The position numbers and the translations under genes are program-made. This document shows positions 3,128 to 16,798 of a stretch of DNA of 64,000 nucleotides, in pieces. Within the stretch, counting starts at the first letter, position 1. Each line of letters starts with the position of its first letter. The notes below the pieces were generated by a model. The model saw nothing but the letters and a program-made list of their open reading frames with translations. It had not been told where the DNA came from and did no database searches. The DNA lies in the NCBI RefSeq assembly GCF_000966285.1, contig NZ_KQ031391.1, positions 5,642,430 through 5,706,429 of the forward strand. The letters are read 5' to 3'. Origin of the DNA: Pseudofrankia sp. DC12 (GTDB lineage Bacteria; Actinomycetota; Actinomycetes; Frankiales; Frankiaceae).

Positions 3128-3179
3128 CCGTACACGCCGGGCCGGGACCGTCTCAGGCGGGTCCGGCCCGGCGTACGGC
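3127..3179 (+). terminator. Long GC-rich hairpin after sdhB
   Basis: The left arm at 3127-3147 (GCCGTAC..GCCGGGCCGGGA) pairs with the right arm at 3162-3179 (TCCGGCCCGGCGTACGGC). There is a two-base bulge and a loop of about 14 bases. It begins at the sdhB stop codon. No U-tract follows, as is common for actinobacterial terminators. Confidence 0.75.
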
Positions 3180-3224
3180 ATCTCTCCCGGTCGAGCCGCC
3201 AGGTGGCGGCCGTCCCACGGCCAG

Positions 3225-3854
3225 CTATTCGTGGTCGGATCCCGGCCGATTCCCATCGAGACCGGGCAGCCGAGCCTCCAGCAGCCGGCGGTGCGCTCCT
3301 GGCCCCAGGTAGTCCTCCTCGTGCGTGAGGAACGTGAACCCCAGCTTGCGATACAGCTTCACGGCAGAGTCGTTGTAGGGGTTCACCGTCAGCCGCACCC
3401 GGCTTACCCCGGCCCGGGCCAGGCGCGCGAACGTGGCGCGCGCGAGCCGTTCACCATGGCCGAGCCCACGGGCTGTCGGCTCCACCCCCAGGCCCAGGAT
3501 CCAGCCAAGCCCGGGCACGGACCCGGCGACTCCGAGACAGTAGCCTCGCAGCCGTCCGCCATCGTCAAGAACCAGCAGGTCGGCCGGGTGCAGGTCGAAC
3601 AGCTGCCGTAGGACGAAATACGGGTACGCGAACTCGCCGAACAGGCGCGTGTCGAGGTCGACGAGCAGGGGAAGCTCGGCAACCTCGACGGGCCGGACGC
3701 GACCGCCTACCGCGACACGGCCACCGCCCGCCCCGTTGCCGGCTAAGTCGGCGCCGAAAACTGTCGGCCCGCGGCCGTCTGGATGCGCCGTCGTTCCGGG
3801 CACGGAGTCGTCGGGCGTAGACGGCTCTCCCCGCCCGGGCTGGCCAATGGTCAT
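3225..3854 (-). CDS. GNAT family N-acetyltransferase (RimI-like)
   Basis: A GNAT domain fills the C-terminal half. It has an acetyl-CoA binding loop resembling R/Q-x-x-G-x-G/A (ARGLGHGERLARATFARL), then VNPYNDSAVKLYRKLGF, the usual beta-strand/helix end of RimI-type enzymes. The substrate cannot be told. The ATG at 3854 was chosen because it overlaps the stop of the upstream small gene as ATGA. The frame continues upstream to 3965, but that part is proline/arginine-rich and overlaps the other gene. The first about 40 residues are low complexity. Confidence 0.8.
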   Translation of the reverse strand: MTIGQPGRGEPSTPDDSVPGTTAHPDGRGPTVFGADLAGNGAGGGRVAVGGRVRPVEVAELPLLVDLDTRLFGEFAYPYFVLRQLFDLHPADLLVLDDGGRLRGYCLGVAGSVPGLGWILGLGVEPTARGLGHGERLARATFARLARAGVSRVRLTVNPYNDSAVKLYRKLGFTFLTHEEDYLGPGAHRRLLEARLPGLDGNRPGSDHE

Positions 3855-4039
3855 CTGTTCGTCAGCCAACCGTCGCGCAACGAGAAGCCGAGGTTCTCCA
3901 CCCGCGCGGAACCGGCGAGCCGCTCGTACCAGGCGAGGTCGTCGACTGTGTGGCGGTGCGTCCACTCATGTAGTTCGGGAGCATCAGGGACGGGCCTGAC
4001 GGCGGCTGACACGTCCAGTGCGCGAGGATATCGGTACAC
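3851..4039 (-). CDS. Small protein translationally coupled to the acetyltransferase
   Basis: The product is 62 residues from a GTG that sits 7 bases after AAGGGGGA, a strong ribosome site. A longer version from an ATG at 4087 is possible. The protein has a conserved look (ELHEWTHRHTVDDLAWYERL, then a basic end), with G or C at most third codon positions. It ends in ATGA shared with the acetyltransferase start, so the two are likely co-translated. Its family was not recognised. A regulatory or partner role for the GNAT enzyme would be a guess from context only. Confidence 0.6.
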   Translation of the reverse strand: MYRYPRALDVSAAVRPVPDAPELHEWTHRHTVDDLAWYERLAGSARVENLGFSLRDGWLTNR

Positions 4040-5074
4040 CTGCTGTTCCCCCTTTTCCACTAGCCGCGATGAGAACCTGGAAAACACGCTGGTCAGCGCC
4101 CGCCTCGGTAAAGGCGCCGCCAGGCGGTCCGGCCGTGTCGCTGCCCGGTCGCAATGTGGCGATCAGCGCCAGGTCCCCAACGCCCCGGCTCATGATCGTG
4201 CGCCGGGTTCTCTGCCATGCCTTTCTGGATCGCCCTGGGACGCCATAGATCCGACCCGTGAGCGCCCCGGCCCTGGGTGGCCGAGAGAGCTGGCAGCGCG
4301 GCCCACCAGCAAGTCTGGGCAGCTCTCGGAGAATCCGCCGACCCGCATCCGCGAGTGCTGTCGGGACTTCGGCCCGGCGAATCTCGGGGACCCGAATTGG
4401 CTAGGCATACGCGTGCTCGAACGGTCGCGGATGGGCGAGTGGGCCAATGGCGCCGTTCCCGTCTGAGGTGATGACAGCGGGGGTAATCCTAACAAGTCGG
4501 TCGTGCTGGCGCCGGAGAAACAGAGCTGTTACTCGGCAATCGGCCGCCGGCTCCCAAGCCGCACCGCCGGCTGCGGCCGGCGAACTCGGTGCCGCCGGTC
4601 AGGCGCCCGCGCAGGCTGTTCGTCCGAACGGCCGCGGCGCGCGCCTGCCGGCGGCGCCGGGAACGACGAGGAGACGGGGAACGGTGGACGAGCCGGAAGC
4701 CCCGGACGCCAGCTGCGACGGCCGTCGCAGGCCCGCAGGCCCGCAGGCCCGCCCGCCGGCCCGCCCGCCGGCCCGCCGGCCGGCCCGGTCGCGTGGTGTT
4801 CGCCCAGTGGGCGCGGCGAGTGAGTTCGTGGGTGCTGACAGAAAGCTACTCGTGACTCTGATAACCTGCGGACGCACTGGGACGGTGGCGTGAAACCAAT
4901 CCTGAGTGGCGACCTGCGGGCTGGCTCAGCCCAACCGGTTCACGCAGCCGGTCCGCGGCGCCTTGCCACTCTCGGCGATGCGCTCGTCCGAGGTGTGGCC
5001 GCGGGCGGCCGGCCGCTGGCCGCGAGCCGCCGTCGGTCGTGTGCGACTGCGCTACTCATTCCTGGACGGCGGCC
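4040..5074. other. Gene-free stretch
   Basis: No frame here has convincing codon usage, ribosome sites or recognisable protein motifs; the open frames present are arginine/proline-rich shadows. It holds a low-complexity GC repeat near 4.73-4.79 kb and presumably the promoter of the operon that starts at 5075, which could not be pinned down. Confidence 0.5.
4728..4788. repeat. Low-complexity CCCGC/CCGGC repeat tract
   Basis: Short overlapping repeats of gcaggccc and gcccgccg run for about 60 bp, almost pure G+C. The tract lies in the gene-free stretch. It may simply be slippage, or may fold strongly. Confidence 0.7.
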
Positions 5075-6928
5075 GTGCGGATCCAACCGAGACACCAGAT
5101 TCTCGACATATGGCGAGCGGTTCTGGCGACCGCCTACCAAGACAGCGCATGGAGCTGGGGCGGTCGTGACGACTCCAACTCGATCAGCGACGCCGAGCAG
5201 TTGTTGTGTCTCCTTTATCCGGCTACCGAGATCGACACGCTGACGCTCGACCGCGCGGACTCGACCGGCGCCGACGTTCGCCGCGCGCTGCGGCCGCTGG
5301 GGGATACCAGCCAGCTGCCGCGTGCACTGCTGGAGATCGTCGAGCTGTACCTTCGGAGGTACACAGCCGAGGACGGCGAGCCGATCTTCAGTTCGGGCCG
5401 CTATGTGTCCACCGATGATCCGAATGGTGTCTCGGTCGAGCAGTCGGACCTGCACATCGTCGATGCCTACTCGATGTCCGTGACGCTTTGTCTGGCGACG
5501 CTCGGCTTCCTCGAAGTATACGAGCCCCCACCCCGCCGAGTGGATCTTCGGCGGCGCATCGAATTCGTTCGCGAGGCGATGAGCCGTCGACTGACCGATT
5601 CCATGGTTGGCCTGCTGCGGAGCTTTGTCGTCCAGACGACCAAGCCTGACGAGGTGGCGGGCCGGGCGATCCTGAGCATGATCAATGTGTCCGGTGTCCC
5701 GGAGCAGGTGGTGCTCGAACGGCTGCGCCGGCAGCTTGCCAGGGTCCGGTCGCGACTGCGTGACGACATCCGAATCGGCCTCTCGCCCGACCTGAAGAAC
5801 CGGCTGGACGACGACAGCCTGCTTTTCGAGTGCGGCTGGACGTGGGGAATCGCGGAGAACGCGGAACCCATCGACTTCGTGGCCGATCTCAAGATTAACA
5901 AACGGCAGGGGTGCGCCGAGGATCGTCCGTACCTCTACTTCACCGTTGTCGCGCTTGACGGCATCAACGACCTCGTGTCGTCCCGTACCCGAGAACTCGG
6001 GCTACTCAATGACGAGCAGCGCCGCCTCGCGGACGCGCTTCAGATCCGCTGGGACATGACGCAGCGCTACTGGTCGACCGTCGCCAGGTTCGGCGACCAG
6101 ATGTGGCCGCTGGAGAACATCCCGTGGCGGACGTCCGATGACGAGGAGTCGGACTATTTCAGTCTTCTGGTCTCGGCGGTGCTCGTGCAGGACCTCCAGC
6201 AGCGCCGAGCGACCGATGACGACCTCACCCGGGCGGTACAGGTCTTCGAGGAGCTTGCGCGGCGCGGCAGGATTACCAGCCGCGTGACTCGGGGAGACCG
6301 TGCGATCGCCCTGCACGAGCCCGGCGTCAAGATGTCCTTGCGTGGCGCGGACCTGCTAGGCCCGCCGCTATACCGCAACGTCGCGGACTTCGCCCCGCTG
6401 CTGCTCAAGCGCAGCCTTCAGGCCGCCGGACTGTCTCAGAACGTGCATGCGCGTGACAGGCTGATGCTCGTCGCCGAGTCCACGATGGATCACCTGAGCC
6501 GTCGGCGCCTGCGGACCGGTAGCGCCGCCGCGGGCCTGTGGGACGACCCCGTCGAGGTGCTCGCGCCCTACGCCACTGGTGAGTCGGACCAGCGGCCGTC
6601 GTGGTACATCACCGAGCGAGTCGTCGAGGGCCTGGTCGCGGCCACGAAGGCTTTCGACGGCCTGCCGCTGCGCAGCGGAGCCCAGGTGGACCATGCCCTC
6701 CAGCTGCTCTCGGAGGCAGACCACCTGCTGAACCGCGAGATGATGACCGCCGACGCCGACGACCAGTCGGCGATGCAGGCGGGCCTCCTCCAGATCGAGG
6801 GCCGGCTCACCCGAGCGCGCCGGATCCTGAATGACAGGCCTGGAACCGCCGCGGCGCTGGCCATGGACGCGCTTCGTCAGCTGGACGGGCTAGCGGTCGC
6901 TGACAGCGACGCCACGAGGAGCATGTAG
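5075..6928 (+). CDS. SCO2524-like uncharacterised protein, first gene of a four-gene operon
   Basis: The product is 617 residues from a GTG at 5075 preceded by GGACGGC. The frame remains open to 5039, but the conserved-looking sequence begins at VRIQPRHQILDIWRA. There are no transmembrane segments or known catalytic motif; the protein looks helical and Arg/Asp-rich, with a charged C-terminal half. It is followed without a gap by the ParA-like gene (TAG then ATG). Gene order and protein character match the uncharacterised actinobacterial SCO2524/2523/2522/2521 set, so this is assigned as the SCO2524-like member. That assignment comes from memory of the family, not from a search. Function unknown. 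Confidence 0.75.
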   Translation: MRIQPRHQILDIWRAVLATAYQDSAWSWGGRDDSNSISDAEQLLCLLYPATEIDTLTLDRADSTGADVRRALRPLGDTSQLPRALLEIVELYLRRYTAEDGEPIFSSGRYVSTDDPNGVSVEQSDLHIVDAYSMSVTLCLATLGFLEVYEPPPRRVDLRRRIEFVREAMSRRLTDSMVGLLRSFVVQTTKPDEVAGRAILSMINVSGVPEQVVLERLRRQLARVRSRLRDDIRIGLSPDLKNRLDDDSLLFECGWTWGIAENAEPIDFVADLKINKRQGCAEDRPYLYFTVVALDGINDLVSSRTRELGLLNDEQRRLADALQIRWDMTQRYWSTVARFGDQMWPLENIPWRTSDDEESDYFSLLVSAVLVQDLQQRRATDDDLTRAVQVFEELARRGRITSRVTRGDRAIALHEPGVKMSLRGADLLGPPLYRNVADFAPLLLKRSLQAAGLSQNVHARDRLMLVAESTMDHLSRRRLRTGSAAAGLWDDPVEVLAPYATGESDQRPSWYITERVVEGLVAATKAFDGLPLRSGAQVDHALQLLSEADHLLNREMMTADADDQSAMQAGLLQIEGRLTRARRILNDRPGTAAALAMDALRQLDGLAVADSDATRSM

Positions 6929-7840
6929 ATGCTGGTGTTCGCCGCCTCCGACAAGGGCGGGACCGGGCGTTCGGTGACGAGCTGCAACATCGCCTACCGC
7001 CTCTCGATGACGGGCCGCGATGTCGCTTATCTGGACTTCGACTTCGGCTCACCGACTGCTGGCGCGATCTTCGAGATCGCGAAGATCGACCGTGGTACCC
7101 CGACCACCGGGCTGCACGAGTGCATCGCCGAGGGTGCCACGGACCCCGACCAGTTCGACGTCCGGAGCCACTCCGACCGGCAGGAGCTGCGGGCGCTGCA
7201 GGCAGGCGCCGGCCGGCTGGTGCTGTTCCCCGGCGACCTCGGTGGCGCGGAGTTCGGCAGCACACCGGAGGGGATCGCGCGGTGCGTCGACCTCTTCCAG
7301 CGCCTCGACAACGAGTTCGACATCTGCGTGGTCGACCTGTCGGCCGGCCGCTCACACGCGGTCGGCATGTCGTTGGCCGCGATGGCCACGCCTGAGCTTC
7401 GGACCGTGCCGGTGCGCTGGGTGGTCTTCCACCGCTGGACGCGGCAGCACATCGTGGCCGCCGCCAACCTGGTGACCGGCGAGCACGGGCTCCTCAAGAT
7501 GGGCGCCGACGTGAGCCACGACCCGGAGCGACTGGCGAACGCGATCAAGTTCGTCCGCACCGCCGTCCCGGAGCTCAGGTCGCCGACGGCGGCGGCACGG
7601 CCGACGCAGGCGCGCTGGCTGCAGCGGGCGGACCGCGAGCTGAACGAGCTGGCCAGACGCTATAACGTCGGTCAGGACCTGCTGCTCGGTTCCACTCCTG
7701 TCGAGCCGGTTCTGCAGTGGCGCGAACAGTTGATCATTGATTCGGACGTGACGGACAACATCGCCAACGGCGAGACCGTCGCGGCCTTCAACCAGCTCGT
7801 CAAGGACCTGCTGGACGACGGGGAGTGGGAAGGGCAATGA
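6929..7840 (+). CDS. SCO2523-like variant P-loop (ParA/MinD-like) protein
   Basis: The product is 303 residues and starts immediately after the previous stop. The N terminus has a ParA-type deviant Walker A in altered form: K9-G-G-T-G-R14-S. The signature Lys9 is kept, but the P-loop lysine of KGGxGK(S/T) is Arg14. The following Asp-rich strand (AYLDFDFGSPTAG) and FDICVVDLSAGRSH match the switch and Walker B regions of the fold. It therefore probably binds nucleotide weakly or differently from ParA. This is expected to be the central protein of the operon. The stop overlaps the next start as ATGA. Confidence 0.85.
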   Translation: MLVFAASDKGGTGRSVTSCNIAYRLSMTGRDVAYLDFDFGSPTAGAIFEIAKIDRGTPTTGLHECIAEGATDPDQFDVRSHSDRQELRALQAGAGRLVLFPGDLGGAEFGSTPEGIARCVDLFQRLDNEFDICVVDLSAGRSHAVGMSLAAMATPELRTVPVRWVVFHRWTRQHIVAAANLVTGEHGLLKMGADVSHDPERLANAIKFVRTAVPELRSPTAAARPTQARWLQRADRELNELARRYNVGQDLLLGSTPVEPVLQWREQLIIDSDVTDNIANGETVAAFNQLVKDLLDDGEWEGQ

Positions 7841-8796
7841 CCGCCGTGGCGGACGTCGTCTCATACAACGAGGCGAGCAACCAGGACGACCTGACGTCGC
7901 TCCCGCTCGCGCACCTTTCCGTCGAGGTCGGTCATTTCTACATGGACGAGCTGCTCAACGGTGACGAGCCGATCCGCGCCCGCTTCGCCGCCGTCCGGCC
8001 ATGGCTGGACGCCGCGCGCGCATCCGTGCGCTCCACCAGCCGGCCCCGGGTGAGCACCTGCTTCCTGATCGATGACTACTTCTACGCGCGAACGAACCCA
8101 GCCGACATCATGCCCCGGCTGCTGGCCGCCGCAGAGGCGAGCGGTGTCACGATCGACTATGTCGCCCGCGAGGCTGGCTGCTACGAGGCCGACAACGTCG
8201 ATCTCGCGGCGCTGACGGCCGCTCGCCTCGTCGACGAGCCGGCGCCGAAGACGAACGGCTCGCGACCGCCCACGCACCAGTCGGGCTGGCTTTCCAACGG
8301 CGCTCGGTCGTCGCCGGACGACGGCGGGCAGGCACTGCGCTCGAGGTCCTGGGAGCCGCCGCAGGAGTTCGGCCGGCGTAACCACTCGATCTTTCTGGAC
8401 GTCGAGCTGTGGCGGGACGAGCGGGACCGGCTGTGGTCCTGCCCGTTCCTCGCGGGCATCTGGCATCTGCTGCGCCTAGGGGTGCTGCGCAACTTCGGCG
8501 AGCCGGTGGCACAGCCACAACTGTGCTCGCCCACGCAGGACTGGCCGTCGGCCTGGGACGACCTCCCGGCCGTGATGCAGCTCCGCGAGGGCGCGGACCC
8601 GTTCAGCGCATACCACGTGCTGTCGATCCTGCCGAGGTCCTACCTCCCGATCGAGCACGCGATCCAGGTCATCCTCGGCCAGCTCGACCTTGAGAAGCCG
8701 GTAGTCGACGACCTGGTTCGCCGCGCCGCGCGGGAGAGGATCACCGTCCCTCCCGCGGTCACCGATCGGATCTCGCACGTCTTCATCGACGGCTGA
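7837..8796 (+). CDS. SCO2522-like uncharacterised protein
   Basis: The product is 319 residues. The ATG at 7837 follows GGGAAGGG and overlaps the previous stop (ATGA), so translation is coupled. Conserved-looking blocks include LSVEVGHFYMDELL, STCFLIDDYFY, IDYVAREAGCYE, WLSNGARSS, and NHSIFLDVELW followed by WSCPFLAGIWHLLRLG. No membrane segment and no catalytic motif were recognised. The many acidic and aromatic residues in conserved blocks suggest an enzyme-like or binding fold, but this is inference. It matches the SCO2522 position and character in the four-gene set. Confidence 0.8.
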   Translation: MTAVADVVSYNEASNQDDLTSLPLAHLSVEVGHFYMDELLNGDEPIRARFAAVRPWLDAARASVRSTSRPRVSTCFLIDDYFYARTNPADIMPRLLAAAEASGVTIDYVAREAGCYEADNVDLAALTAARLVDEPAPKTNGSRPPTHQSGWLSNGARSSPDDGGQALRSRSWEPPQEFGRRNHSIFLDVELWRDERDRLWSCPFLAGIWHLLRLGVLRNFGEPVAQPQLCSPTQDWPSAWDDLPAVMQLREGADPFSAYHVLSILPRSYLPIEHAIQVILGQLDLEKPVVDDLVRRAARERITVPPAVTDRISHVFIDG

Positions 8797-8805
8797 CCGG
8801 CGCCC

Positions 8806-9756
8806 ATGCTGCTGCTCGGCGAAGTTCGCACCTGCCTGCTCCGGACCTCTACCCAGCTGCCCCTGGGCGTGGCCGAGCAGGTTCTTGAGCTGCTCCCCGG
8901 ACGCCGCGTCCTCACGACGACTCGGCCGTGCGCCAAGTCCGTCTCCGCGCCCCTGCTCACCGGTGTCGACTGCAAGCTCGCGAGCCCTCCCCAGGCCGCA
9001 CGGGGCTCCCGCGTGATCGGCACCGTGTCGGCGAACGCGGTGATCACCGGCGGGCTGGTCCTGCAGGCGTCGGCCCGCACCCGCGTGGTCCAGGCCGCCA
9101 GGCCGAACCGGCTCCCCTGGTCGCACTACGCTGCACTGCCCGGCGTCGTGGAAGCGGTCACCCCGACGGACGCGGAGGTGGTCGCCGACGGGTTCCTCGG
9201 GAACCCGAGCCCGGGCCCGACCCTGGACCTCGGCGCCGTCGCCGAGCGGCTCATCGGGACGGTCCAGCGCGACCGTCGGCTCGACCACGTGACCGCCCTG
9301 CGCTCACGGACGATCCGGGTGCGCTGGGTCGCGCTGCCGGACGCGACGGCCAGGACGCCGAGAGCCGAGGTCCGGCTCGTCGACGACGTCGTGCGAAGCG
9401 TGCGGCTGGCCATGCCGCCCGAGCAGCTCGATCTCGCGCAGTCCTTCGTCGAGGACTTCGCGCTGCACGACTGGCTCCTGACCTCGCTCGACCGGGTGAT
9501 CGAAGATGCCGAGCGGCGTCGGATGGCCGGAGAGGACCCGACCGACCTCGTGCGCGCGGCCGTCGAACGCCTCGAGCACCTGTGGATGCCGGGTGCCCGG
9601 ATCGCGACCGAGCTGGCCGGGCTGTGGCCGGCGCTGGACAGCAACCCGGGCTACTCGAGGCAGTGGAACTCGCTGGTCGGGCGGATCCACTCCCAGATCG
9701 CGCTGCGGACCCTCCAGGCCCTCGCCGACGCCCGGCGGCGCAGCGCGGGCTGGTAA
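8806..9756 (+). CDS. SCO2521-like uncharacterised protein, last gene of the operon
   Basis: The product is 316 residues starting 9 bases after the previous stop. Conserved-looking blocks are MLLLGEVRTCLLRTS, RPCAKSVSAPLLTGVDC, GTVSANAVITGGLVLQ and RPNRLPWSHYAALPG. The C-terminal 120 residues are helical and Arg-rich. There is no signal peptide or membrane helix. It corresponds to the SCO2521 member of the set. No function is known. It converges on a channel-like membrane gene 26 bp downstream. Confidence 0.8.
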   Translation: MLLLGEVRTCLLRTSTQLPLGVAEQVLELLPGRRVLTTTRPCAKSVSAPLLTGVDCKLASPPQAARGSRVIGTVSANAVITGGLVLQASARTRVVQAARPNRLPWSHYAALPGVVEAVTPTDAEVVADGFLGNPSPGPTLDLGAVAERLIGTVQRDRRLDHVTALRSRTIRVRWVALPDATARTPRAEVRLVDDVVRSVRLAMPPEQLDLAQSFVEDFALHDWLLTSLDRVIEDAERRRMAGEDPTDLVRAAVERLEHLWMPGARIATELAGLWPALDSNPGYSRQWNSLVGRIHSQIALRTLQALADARRRSAGW

Positions 9757-9782
9757 CCGGGCCGGTCACCGCGCCCGCGGCC

Positions 9783-10610
9783 TTACAGCCGGAACCAGCG
9801 CCGAACGATGAGCGCGAAGAACACGCTCGTCGAGATCAGGCCGACATAGGACTCCACCACGAGCGGGATGCGGGCCGATGTCGGCAGATCTCCCTCGCCG
9901 CTGCTCAGCGGGTTGAGGTAGTTCACGAGCGCGACGTACGTGCCGTTCGCGATCGGCGTCCCGAAAACAAGAATGAAAAGGAGACTGAACACGACCAGCT
10001 GACAGGCGCCCCACCCGAGCAGCCGATAGGGCTCGTAGCCGTAGCCGCACAGCCAGTCGGCCGCCGTCTCGCGCGCCTTGACGACGCCCGGCTTGCGGGC
10101 CTGATGCCGGGCGCGCAGGCCCGCCAGCACACACTTGTCACGGGCGCGCTGTTCGTCCGCCGTCTGGAAGAGCGCGGCGGCCCGGGTGTAGGCGAGCGCG
10201 GCGTGCAGCGGGAGCTGCCAGCCGCGCAGCTGGTTGCCCAGTGTCTCGGCGATACCCGCGAGCCGGAGAGTCTGGGCGGTGGTCAGCCGCAGAGGTCCGT
10301 TCGCCTCCGTCTCGGCGGCCAGCAGCGCGGCCAGCAGACACCGCAGGTCCTCGTGCTTGTCCTGGTCCAGATCGTCGGCGTCCGCGGCGGCCGGAGTGGT
10401 AGCCGTTTCGTAGAGGGCCTGGAAGACCAGCGCATCTGACTTCCGCGCCTCGCGGGGGATGTCCCGGACATAGTCGTCGAGCACCTTCGCCATCATGGAC
10501 TCGAATCGATTGGCCAGCTCCGCCTCGTCGTCCCGCACCGTTCCGTTGTCCCGGCTGGTCAGCAACTCGTTCGCGTGCTGGCCTGCCTTGCGACGGATCG
10601 AGCCCGCCAT
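9783..10610 (-). CDS. Two-helix membrane protein with ion-channel-like C terminus
   Basis: The product is 275 residues. The first about 180 are soluble and helical with an Asp-rich patch (DADDLDQDKHED). Then come two hydrophobic helices, around QLVVFSLLFILVFG and LVVESYVGLISTSVFFALIV, separated by a short re-entrant-like segment (GEGDLPTSAR). This helix, pore-like loop, helix layout, plus the lead-in WLCGYGYEPYRLLGWG, resembles two-TM ion channel domains attached to pentapeptide-repeat and other actinobacterial proteins. The TVGYGD filter is absent. The annotated start is the ATG at 10610. A better ribosome site lies upstream of an ATA at 10655 (separate entry). Confidence 0.65.
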   Translation of the reverse strand: MAGSIRRKAGQHANELLTSRDNGTVRDDEAELANRFESMMAKVLDDYVRDIPREARKSDALVFQALYETATTPAAADADDLDQDKHEDLRCLLAALLAAETEANGPLRLTTAQTLRLAGIAETLGNQLRGWQLPLHAALAYTRAAALFQTADEQRARDKCVLAGLRARHQARKPGVVKARETAADWLCGYGYEPYRLLGWGACQLVVFSLLFILVFGTPIANGTYVALVNYLNPLSSGEGDLPTSARIPLVVESYVGLISTSVFFALIVRRWFRL

Positions 10611-10652
10611 CGCCTCGGTGAAAGGCTTGGCGACTGACGAGATCGGCCTGGT

Positions 10653-10667
10653 TATCGGTGCCTCCTT
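10653..10667 (-). promoter_or_regulatory. Perfect Shine-Dalgarno placed before an in-frame ATA
   Basis: On the minus strand AAGGAGG (10667-10661) is followed after 5 bases (CACCG) by ATA (10655-10653), in frame with the membrane protein. The sequence that follows (ITRPISSVAKPF) joins it without a stop. ATA is a very rare initiator, so either this gene uses it, or an ATG/GTG mutated to ATA. Confidence 0.5.
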
Positions 10668-11081
10668 GCGACTGCTACGCCTCGCGCCGGGCCGGCCGCC
10701 AGCAGCGGCCGACCCGCCAGGGCGGAGGCGTGGTGGAGTGGCCTGCGCCGAATCCGTATTCCGATTGTCGCGCCTCGTCTCACGATTCGCTACGTCTTCT
10801 CCCGAATAGGCTGGCCGACGTCGCTCTGGCCATCGTGGGAGGCGCTCTGCGTGGCACCGCCGCGCTACGTCGCGCCGGCGTGTGGCGGGGCAGCCACCGT
10901 CGTCAGGACGGGCGAGCGCCAGGCGACGAGACGCTCGCCACCCTCTTTGGCGGGCGAGGCATCGACGGGCGTTCCAGCAGGGCACCGAAGGTAAGGTCTC
11001 ACTTATCGAACTTTGTCCACGAGAACCTTTGGCCGGGCTGGTCGCGACCGGTGCCGGTTGCCCGGTCGAAAGGTCATCCGC

Positions 11082-13145
11082 GTGAGCGGTGCGCAGGTGG
11101 TCTCCGGAGCTGAGCCGGTCGAACCGGTCCCGGCAGCAGGAGCGCAGACCGTGCCGGCGGGCGGCCCCGACGATGTGCCCGCGCTGGTGCCAGCTGCCCG
11201 GCTGTCCCCCCGGTCGCGGCTGGCCCGCCTGGCCGGTGAGGCCCTGGCGGCGCCCACGTCCGCGGGACGGTCGGCCGACGCGCCCGTGGACGCCCCGGCG
11301 ACGACAGCTCTTCCCCGGCCGCGCCGCAAGCCTGCGCCGTCCGTGCCGGGGTCGGACGGCGCCAGGGACGGCATCGTCGAGCCTGGCGGCATCGTCGAGA
11401 CTGGCGGCATCGTCGAGCCTGGCGGCGCGGTGACGGCCGTCGGCGTCACCAGCCCGCCAGGCACGTCCGCCGAGGGTGACGAGGGCCGGCGCCCTCACGC
11501 CGGTGGCGCCGCGGCGGCGGAGCCCGAGATCACGGAGGCGCCGACCGAGTGGATTCCACCGGAAGGCCTCAACGAGCTGCCCGACAAGCTCAGCCCGCGG
11601 CCCGAGGCCGACGGTGGTTCGCCCCGGCGGCCTCGTGGGCTCGTCAGGGCGCTGGTTGTCGGGCTGGCCGCGATCGTGTCGTGTGCGTTGTTCCTCGTGG
11701 CCGGGCTCGGCTACGGCGCCACGAAGTACTACGAGACGCAGCTGAGCCGGACCGACCTGGGCGCGGGGCGGGTCGAGGGGACCCGGCCGCCCGCGGTCCC
11801 GCACGGGCGGGAGACCTGGCTGCTGGTCGGCTCGGACGTCCGCACCGGCGCGGACTCGGCCGAGGTCGGTGGGGCCCGCTCGGACACGATGATGATCGGC
11901 TATCTCGGCGCCAACGGCTCGACGACTCTGGTCTCGGTCCCGCGTGACCTCAAGGTGACCATCCCCGCGTTCACCGACTCGGCCGGCAAGCACCACTCCG
12001 CGCGCACCGACAAGATCAACGCGGCGTTCAGCCTCGGCGGCCCGGCGCTGCTGGTGCGGACCCTCGAGAACGTCACCGACGTGCGCATCGACCATTTCGC
12101 CGAGATCGACTTCGGCGGTTTCAAGCAGATGAGCGACGTGCTCGGCGGCATCGAGGTCTGCATGGTCAAGGACCCGTTCAAGGAGTACGTCGCCGAGGAC
12201 GGGAAGACGTCGACCAACCTCAACGACCCGATGTCCGGGTTCCGCGGGCAGGTGGGCCCGAACCTGCTGGAGGGCGACAACGCGCTGGCGTTCGTCCGGC
12301 AGCGGCACGGCTTCGTCAACGGAGACTACTCCCGGATCCAGCGGCAGCAGGCGTTCCTCGCGGCGGTCTTCCGCAAGGTCAACAGCGGGAACCTGCTCAC
12401 CGACCCTGGGAAGCTGGCCGGCTTCCTGAACGCCGTCACGGGCGCGGTCACAGTCGACTCGGGCACGAGCCTGACCGATCTGAAGACCCTCGCCGAGCGG
12501 CTGCACGCGATGAACGCCGGGCAGGTGCACTTCACCACGATCCCGCTGTCCGGCGCGCAGTCCGCCCCGGTCTACTACGCGCTTTACGACCCGGCCACGG
12601 TCCGCGGGTTCATCAAGCAGATCCTCGCCAGCGACGACGCGACGGCGGCTGTCGCCGGATCGCCGACGCCGTCCGCGGCGCCGAGCCCGACCGTGGACCC
12701 GAGCCAGATCCGGGTGACGGTGCTCAACGGCAGCCCGACGGGGGGCACCGCCAACAAGGCGGCGGCCAAGCTGCGGGCCGCCGGCTACCAGGTGGTCCGC
12801 GTCGGCACCAACGCCTCGCGCCAGGTCGCCAGCACCGAGGTGCTCTACCCGCAAAGCCTGGCCGCCGCGGCCAGCCGGCTGCTCGCCGACATTCCCGGGG
12901 CCCGGCTGGTTCCGAACACCGAGGCCGCCGGCTCGTCCGGTGGAGCCTTGACGACGTCGCCGGCCAGTCCTTCCGCCACGGCGACGGCGACCAGCGGGAT
13001 GATCACCCTGGTCGTCGGCGAGGACATGGTCACCGGCGACACATCGGTCATCGCTACGCCGACCGCCGCCACTCGGGCGCCGGGCGCCGTGGTGCCGTAC
13101 TACACGCAGGCGCCCGTCTCGGCCGCCGCGGGCTGCGTCAAGTAG
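11082..13145 (+). CDS. LytR-CpsA-Psr (LCP) family cell-wall ligase with LytR C-terminal domain
   Basis: The product is 687 residues from a GTG at 11082 preceded by AAAGG; the frame is open to 11013 without a better site. About 190 low-complexity cytoplasmic residues come first, with an IVE(P/T)GG repeat. One membrane helix follows near 191-212. The LCP domain is next, with DVRTGADSAEVGGARSDTM, VPRDLKV, KINAAFSLGG and the Arg-rich RQRHGFVNGDYSRIQRQQ, which bind the polyprenyl-pyrophosphate donor. A LytR_C domain spans about residues 540-620 (IRVTVLNGS...AGYQVVRVG). LCP enzymes attach anionic glycopolymers to peptidoglycan outside the membrane. Confidence 0.93.
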   Translation: MSGAQVVSGAEPVEPVPAAGAQTVPAGGPDDVPALVPAARLSPRSRLARLAGEALAAPTSAGRSADAPVDAPATTALPRPRRKPAPSVPGSDGARDGIVEPGGIVETGGIVEPGGAVTAVGVTSPPGTSAEGDEGRRPHAGGAAAAEPEITEAPTEWIPPEGLNELPDKLSPRPEADGGSPRRPRGLVRALVVGLAAIVSCALFLVAGLGYGATKYYETQLSRTDLGAGRVEGTRPPAVPHGRETWLLVGSDVRTGADSAEVGGARSDTMMIGYLGANGSTTLVSVPRDLKVTIPAFTDSAGKHHSARTDKINAAFSLGGPALLVRTLENVTDVRIDHFAEIDFGGFKQMSDVLGGIEVCMVKDPFKEYVAEDGKTSTNLNDPMSGFRGQVGPNLLEGDNALAFVRQRHGFVNGDYSRIQRQQAFLAAVFRKVNSGNLLTDPGKLAGFLNAVTGAVTVDSGTSLTDLKTLAERLHAMNAGQVHFTTIPLSGAQSAPVYYALYDPATVRGFIKQILASDDATAAVAGSPTPSAAPSPTVDPSQIRVTVLNGSPTGGTANKAAAKLRAAGYQVVRVGTNASRQVASTEVLYPQSLAAAASRLLADIPGARLVPNTEAAGSSGGALTTSPASPSATATATSGMITLVVGEDMVTGDTSVIATPTAATRAPGAVVPYYTQAPVSAAAGCVK
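11370..11423 (+). repeat. 18-bp in-frame repeats in the LCP gene
   Basis: Three 18-bp units encode GIVEPG, GIVETG, GIVEPG in the disordered cytoplasmic N-terminal tail of the LCP protein. The repeat is in frame. Confidence 0.9.
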
Positions 13146-14728: not shown

Positions 14729-14829
14729 CCAGGTATCCCGATCAGCCAGGTATCCCGATCAGCCAGGTATCCCGATCAGCCAGGTATCCCGATCAGCCAG
14801 GTATCCCACCAGCCAGGTATCCCGACCAG
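14729..14829. repeat. 17-bp tandem array, six units
   Basis: The unit ccaggtatcccgatcag is repeated head to tail at 14729, 14746, 14763 and 14780, all perfect. A 16-bp variant follows at 14797 (one t and one g lost or changed) and a one-base variant at 14813. There are no spacers, so it is not a CRISPR. It fills most of the gap between the hydroxyacyl-CoA and acyl-CoA dehydrogenase genes and ends 22 bp before the GTG of the latter. Confidence 0.95.
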
Positions 14830-14851
14830 CGAGGTAGGAAGAAGGCACAAG

Positions 14852-16136: not shown

Positions 16137-16550
16137 TCATCGGCCGGTGAGCTGGACGACTTCGGAGCGGACGCCCGCGAGTTCACCGAAGCCGGCGTTG
16201 GCGTCGGTCGTGAGCAGCACGCGGCTGGTGGCGGCCGCAGTCGCCGCGATCGCCATGTCATGGGCTGATCGTGGCCGGCCGCTGGCCATCGCGGCGACAG
16301 TCAGGCGCGCGTGCACCCGCGCGACGCCGAGGGTGTAGGGCTCGATCGGGAGGCTGGACAGGATCGCCTCCACGCGGACGGCACGGGCTTGGCGGCGTGC
16401 CTCGTCAGCACGCTCGGCGCCGACCAGGAGTTCCATCGCGGTGACCGCAGCGATCACGGCGTCGTCCAGCCCGAGGAGGGTGTCGACGTCGAGCGTGCCT
16501 CTTTCCACAGCGATGAGGACGCCGGTGTCGAGGATTACTCGCCTGGCCAT
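16137..16550 (-). CDS. vapC: PIN-domain toxin (VapC-like)
   Basis: The product is 137 residues with all PIN acidic positions: ILDTGVLIAVE (first Asp), TAMELLVGAERA (Glu), SAHDMAIAATA (Asp) and LLTTDANAGFGEL (last Asp). VapC toxins are Mg-dependent RNases that cut tRNA or rRNA. The gene overlaps the antitoxin gene by 16 bp, the usual coupling in these pairs. Confidence 0.92.
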   Translation of the reverse strand: MARRVILDTGVLIAVERGTLDVDTLLGLDDAVIAAVTAMELLVGAERADEARRQARAVRVEAILSSLPIEPYTLGVARVHARLTVAAMASGRPRSAHDMAIAATAAATSRVLLTTDANAGFGELAGVRSEVVQLTGR

Positions 16551-16798
16551 CCGCGCACCTCATCGCTGAAGCCGGAGCCCAGCTCGGCGTGGATATGCTC
16601 CAGGTCGTCGGCGAAGCCCGCATCGGCCGGGTTGTCGCGCAGCGCGGCCTTGAGCCGGTCCGCGGACGTCTGCCGTTCGGGGACGAGCCGACCGACCGGC
16701 ACGCCGTCGCGGGTGATGACGACGATCTCTCCGTGCTCGACGGCATCGAGGATGTTCGCGAAACTCCGCGCTGCCTGGGTGGCCGTCACGGTAACCAT
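16535..16798 (-). CDS. Phd/YefM-type antitoxin
   Basis: The product is 87 residues. The N-terminal Phd fold is VTVTATQAARSFANILDAVEHGEIVVITRDGVPVGRLVP (read in parts), and the acidic C-terminal tail would wrap the PIN toxin. It is upstream of and overlapping the toxin. It should repress its own promoter in the AT-richer stretch just upstream (attacatactatctgatctg, near 16800-16820). Confidence 0.92.
   Translation of the reverse strand: MVTVTATQAARSFANILDAVEHGEIVVITRDGVPVGRLVPERQTSADRLKAALRDNPADAGFADDLEHIHAELGSGFSDEVRGWPGE

Follow-up and report, generated by a model that had tools for sequence, protein, structure and literature searches.

In the actinobacterium Pseudofrankia sp. DC12, a stretch of 64,000 nucleotides (contig NZ_KQ031391.1, positions 5,642,430 to 5,706,429; hereafter the window) carries four consecutive forward-strand genes, here called A to D (5075-9756), which are co-inherited as one unit and include, as gene B, a MinD/ParA-like protein whose P-loop lysine is replaced by an arginine found in every homologue examined. 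This gene set is real and already catalogued; NCBI has named families for it, among them the "SCO2523 family variant P-loop protein" to which B belongs, so that the odd P-loop, like the set itself, was known before. What is new here is the extension of the set to a module of seven parts, whose two kinds of membrane partner match the clades of the core, together with the replacement and loss of a block at a single slot and a toroid-like model of A. The set is strictly conserved and widely shared among actinobacteria, and work in Streptomyces has reportedly linked it to growth and development; it previously had neither a function nor a model.

All four genes are full-length members of NCBI families, with scores well above the respective cut-offs: A (5075-6928, 617 amino acids) belongs to SCO2524 (NF040567; 800 bits, cut-off 300), B (6929-7840, 303 amino acids) to SCO2523 (NF040564; 453, cut-off 200), C (7837-8796, 319 amino acids, an alpha/beta protein) to SCO2522 (NF040566; 411, cut-off 200) and D (8806-9756, 316 amino acids) to SCO2521 (NF040565; 328, cut-off 150). 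B, C and D start with ATG and A with GTG; although the frame of A is open from 5039, the point at which its homologues begin shows the GTG at 5075 to be the correct start. The stop of A abuts the start of B (TAG followed directly by ATG), B and C share four bases (ATGA), and nine bases separate C from D. An earlier reading made from the sequence alone had proposed four SCO2521-2524-like genes with overlapping or abutting ends, and every one of these open reading frames is present as described.

The same reading had taken the genes to be one co-conserved unit and had offered a lack of co-conservation as grounds for abandoning the idea; the genome counts show the opposite. Across a phylum-wide set of 397 actinobacterial genomes, A, B (above its cut-off) and C are present in exactly the same seven, and D, whose presence was taken from its position beside A-C and not from a search of its own, adjoins them in all seven. 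Within the order of the window, B is carried by 19 of 35 genomes. For the analysis of gene neighbourhoods, 47 regions were examined by calling genes and clustering their proteins, of which 46 are distinct (L033 and L089 being the same), and A-D are clustered in 45 of these 46 loci. The exception is Micromonospora RP3T (locus L059), with no A within 10 kb; it was considered as a core without A, a candidate that was dropped once A was found elsewhere in that genome. The arrangement varies in some lineages, Catenulispora species having two inverted copies of the core and Micromonosporaceae having D on the opposite strand, and the core-bearing hosts include some soil actinobacteria.

The variant P-loop of gene B

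The N-terminus of B reads MLVFAASDKGGTGRS and contains the variant P-loop D8-K9-G-G-T-G-R14-S15 (6950-6973, forward strand, with the Arg14 codon at 6968-6970), in which the signature lysine, Lys9, is kept and position 14 is an arginine. Assignment to the ParA/MinD-like proteins is supported by Pfam PF01656 (CbiA, 28.9 bits, cut-off 25.4) as well as by NF040564. The motif is SDKGGTGRS in 50 of 51 rows of the homologue alignment and SPTGGTGRS in the remaining one (L059), where the signature lysine has been lost as well, so that Arg14 occurs in 51/51 and the canonical KGGxGK[ST] of MinD/ParA deviant Walker A proteins in none. R14, K9 and the switch aspartates D36, D38 and D136 are each conserved in at least 98% of these homologues, and the family-specific residues R141, R163-W164, H168-R169-W170 and Q173-H174 are also kept in B.

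The ParA/MinD relatives whose P-loops were read, from the window's own genome and from other actinobacteria, have lysine at this position, except for two KGGTGAS proteins. Because Arg14 is fixed in the family while these relatives mostly keep lysine, the arginine is, on the evidence of the alignment, an ancient and selected family trait and not the product of decay, as had been argued from the single sequence; the contrary outcome, in which a canonical P-loop would be the rule and R14 peculiar to the window, was looked for among the 51 homologues, and R14 proved universal. The fixation of R14, taken together with the identical distribution of A, B and C over seven of 397 genomes, makes a pattern far beyond chance. 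Arginine P-loops occur elsewhere too, since among other families B scores highest against NF047398, whose members have a KGGVGR motif (45.3 bits, under the 90-bit cut-off). Replacement of the P-loop lysine by arginine usually cripples hydrolysis, and altered nucleotide use by B may be inferred: because the fold, the signature lysine and the switch aspartates are kept but the P-loop residue is an arginine, B probably binds nucleotide with weak or no hydrolysis.

Predicted structures of A, C and D

The AlphaFold2 model of the 617 residues of A is confident (mean predicted local distance difference test score, pLDDT, 90.6; predicted template modelling score 0.88), and its 50 best Foldseek matches, none of them at E<=0.001, are mostly alpha/alpha toroids, with probabilities up to 0.99 and target TM-scores up to 0.55. 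These neighbours comprise GH9 and GH76 enzymes, cellobiose 2-epimerases, terpenoid cyclases and the TE domain of complement C5. A had been described from its sequence as a large helical protein, which holds as far as helicity goes, the resemblance of the model to alpha/alpha toroids being more specific; this toroid-like shape is suggestive rather than significant and points to a protein that is probably an enzyme or a ligand binder.

In C, an alignment of 51 rows reveals an invariant set of residues (D79, D80, D107, R111, E112, H183, D188, E190 and C202) that looks catalytic, whereas D is predicted from model and alignment to have a beta-rich N-terminal part and a helical C-terminal part. C and D were folded as a single chain, with the TGA between them read through, giving a model with a mean pLDDT of 86.8; its top structural hit, an arginyl-tRNA synthetase (E 0.015, TM-score 0.21), was judged to be due to chance. 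According to hydropathy, B, C and D have no transmembrane segments, and A shows one borderline peak at the cut-off (residues 128-146).

Membrane partners and exchange at one slot

The proposal of a unit of four genes was right as to the genes and too narrow as to the unit, which extends to a membrane protein (9783-10610, reverse strand), a GNAT acetyltransferase (3225-3965, reverse strand; PF00583, 52 bits) and, in the majority of relatives, a methyltransferase. A GNAT of the same family lies beside the core in 31 of the 46 loci, and in Micromonosporaceae an oxidoreductase dependent on flavin adenine dinucleotide (FAD) adjoins the module. The membrane partner comes in two types, of which type I is found in 29 loci and type II in 15; no locus has both, and two (L059 and L087) have neither. 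Type I, or m4, has its two transmembrane helices at the N-terminus; these are followed by a linker and then by a C-terminal domain whose likeness to DUF6879 is sub-threshold. Type II, or ch7, is the 275-residue protein encoded at 9783-10610 in the window, in which hydropathy and alignment indicate a helical N-terminal part followed by GYGYxP, a first transmembrane helix (TM1), a loop, a second helix (TM2) and RRWFR; the loop is NYLNPLSSGEGD in the window (NPLSSGEGD) and NPLGxGD in several homologues. Full-length matches to ch7 occur in two of 247 genomes of the phylum, both of them core-bearing. No NCBIfam or Pfam family matches ch7, and sequence-profile searches of the PDB with ch7, A, C and D gave nothing significant. 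In two loci, the neighbour of the module is a protein that joins a GNAT to a multi-helix membrane domain (L032, 6749-7966; L059, 12926-14203), and because L059 has neither of the usual partners, this fusion may be a third partner type.

The SCO2525-type methyltransferase (NF040568; NNMT/PNMT/TEMT family) closely precedes A in 28 of 29 type I and in 3 of 15 type II loci, and was found neither at that position nor anywhere else in the genome of the window, which thus holds a type II module with ch7 and without this enzyme. The roughly 1.1 kb upstream of A (3966-5074), the place occupied by the methyltransferase in type I loci of the same genus, has no credible gene and includes a low-complexity stretch rich in GCCGGCCC (4726-4787). 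Remnants of the methyltransferase were also considered upstream of A in the window, and none were found.

In a tree of A, B and C combined (51 rows, built by a quick method and with some long branches), the cores of type I and type II loci are separated with a Shimodaira-Hasegawa-like approximate likelihood ratio (SH-aLRT) support of 100% on each side, the rows of the two loci without either partner falling on the type I side. Since this split matches the type of partner, the membrane partner follows the core. The core of the window is nearest to those of Candidatus Frankia meridionalis and Solihabitans. The slot lies between frdB and a LytR gene, and in G425 and G429, two genomes of the same genus as the window, it is occupied by a type I module with its methyltransferase. 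Their flanks are nearly those of the window (frdA/frdB 97-98%, LytR 89%, downstream genes 94-97%), while their module proteins are only 41-59% identical to its own. At the nucleotide level, blastn of the window against G425 gives 96% identity up to 3157 and 89% from 11574, and between these near-identical frdB-side and LytR-side flanks lies a divergent block (3158-11573) with patches of just 73-87%. In three further genomes, G424, G427 and G428, frdB is followed directly by the LytR gene, so that the slot is empty. The GNAT of the window groups with the GNATs of the same-genus type I modules, which suggests that the block from A to ch7 was exchanged at the slot while the resident GNAT stayed; judged by this grouping, the exchange may have gone in either direction.

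Beyond the module, the unit CCAGGTATCCCGATCAG, 17 bases long, is repeated 6.4 times in tandem in a gap between two genes (14729-14836), and because the same gap differs in length in the same-genus L085, the copy number may vary. A PIN-domain toxin and a Phd/YefM-type antitoxin encoded at 16137-16798 on the reverse strand are likely a type II toxin-antitoxin pair. At 330-413, 3.1 copies of a 27-base unit shortly precede position 447, the likely start of a fumarate reductase/succinate dehydrogenase-like gene, and are in frame with it.

Possible functions and comparison with known systems

Our preferred explanation, which we hold tentatively and regard as possible rather than probable, is an accessory, membrane-coupled module in which B acts as a nucleotide switch and whose output is the regulation of growth or development. 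A-D would assemble in the cytosol and dock as a complex on the membrane partner; within this complex, B would bind nucleotide and dimerise with little or no hydrolysis, making it a stable switch or scaffold rather than a cycling or oscillating ATPase. The toroid-like A and C, with its invariant Asp/Glu/His/Cys/Arg set, might supply enzymatic activity or ligand binding, acting together with the GNAT and the methyltransferase on a small molecule or peptide, and the membrane partner might read the result of that chemistry, the output being growth or development and not DNA partition. SCO2525 reportedly influences colony growth and development, as described by Gehring et al. in 2004. In Streptomyces coelicolor, sco2521-sco2526 have been called an operon under HupS control (PMC11472566); SCO2525 is cited as required for normal growth (PMC11472566) and is credited with a role in morphogenesis (PMC6344877), and in the literature consulted SCO2521-2524 receive passing mentions only. 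Several points weigh against this explanation. The published phenotype was described in another genus and concerns SCO2525, which is missing from the genome of the window; such a core is absent from about half of the order's genomes, the function therefore being dispensable; and neither A nor the C-D model has a Foldseek match at E<=0.001, the latter having been compared with PDB and viral libraries.

The main rivals, both of which we consider rather unlikely, are a conflict system and a small biosynthetic pathway. In an anti-phage, kin-recognition or self-killing system, A-D would detect a trigger, whereupon the membrane partner, of whichever type, would permeabilise the cell; this would agree with the exchangeability of the two-helix partners, with the same-slot divergence and empty slots within one genus (identity of 41-59% in the module proteins and 90-98% in the flanks), with the patchy distribution over 19 of 35 genomes of the order and with the KGGVGR-motif family being the best outside match of B; yet no credible PADLOC defence model was matched (B giving one weak P-loop hit), a plasmid search with C and a phage search with A found no match, no known toxin or nuclease domain is present, and in S. 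coelicolor the operon is of a housekeeping style, controlled by HupS. A more specific variant, a novel signalling or conflict system in which an arginine-locked MinD-fold switch and a toroid protein serve two alternative, unrelated two-helix outputs that are exchanged as a block at one slot, seems to us slightly less likely still. If instead A, C, the GNAT, the methyltransferase and, in Actinoplanes, a FAD-dependent protein resembling amino-acid oxidases made or modified a metabolite, with B as an accessory NTPase, this would suit the toroid enzymes that are the top structural neighbours of A (cellobiose 2-epimerases, GH76, GH9 and terpenoid cyclases), the place of SCO2525 within the NNMT/PNMT/TEMT family and the DAO neighbour in Micromonosporaceae; but the loci have no transporter, precursor peptide or regulator in common, and the non-core enzymes are not obligatory, whereas B is present in all loci examined.

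Two further explanations concern B itself, and both are improbable. Arginine, being basic too, might stand in for lysine with near-normal activity, as the recurrence of the change in a second curated NCBI family with a KGGVGR P-loop might suggest, but the relatives read keep lysine, the two KGGTGAS proteins apart, and the crippling of hydrolysis that usually follows this substitution speaks against an ordinary ATPase. Least likely of all is a true ParA/MinD-type positioning ATPase with A, C and D as cargo or adaptor: the fold, signature lysine and switch motifs are retained, but the P-loop lysine is replaced in all 51 homologues, and there is neither a ParB-like partner (Pfam and NCBIfam give no ParB hit for A, C or D; parS was not searched for) nor a C-terminal amphipathic membrane helix of the MinD type. 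With no secretion component present either, the sequence-only suggestion of a machine for localisation, secretion or a nucleoid-related task found no backing. The core with its clade-matched partner, the P-loop rule, the toroid-like A and the swap or loss of a block make the function of the gene set testable through its partner, nucleotide state and ligand.

When compared with known systems, the window has the core of the NCBIfam families SCO2521-SCO2525 (NF040565, NF040566, NF040564, NF040567 and NF040568) in the gene order of its relatives, but lacks SCO2525 and has the membrane protein ch7. The C-terminal GYGYxP-TM1-loop-TM2 part of ch7 is distantly related to two-helix, pore-like Streptomyces proteins with beta-helix N-termini. 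K+ channels (PF07885) share its layout of two helices and a loop, and ch7 was considered as one and rejected, as it has no significant Pfam match, an hhalign probability of 0.5% and no TVGYGD-like filter, the ion-selectivity signature not being conserved. B resembles the KGGVGR-motif variant AAA ATPases (NF047398) in having an arginine in the P-loop, but misses the cut-off of that family. With the deviant Walker A ATPases of the MinD/ParA/FleN/Nbp35 type, it shares the fold, Lys9 and the switch aspartates, and it differs from them in the arginine that takes the place of the P-loop lysine and in the additional invariant residues Arg141, Arg163-Trp164 and His168-Arg169-Trp170; it thus represents one more natural MinD/ParA family that gave up the P-loop lysine.

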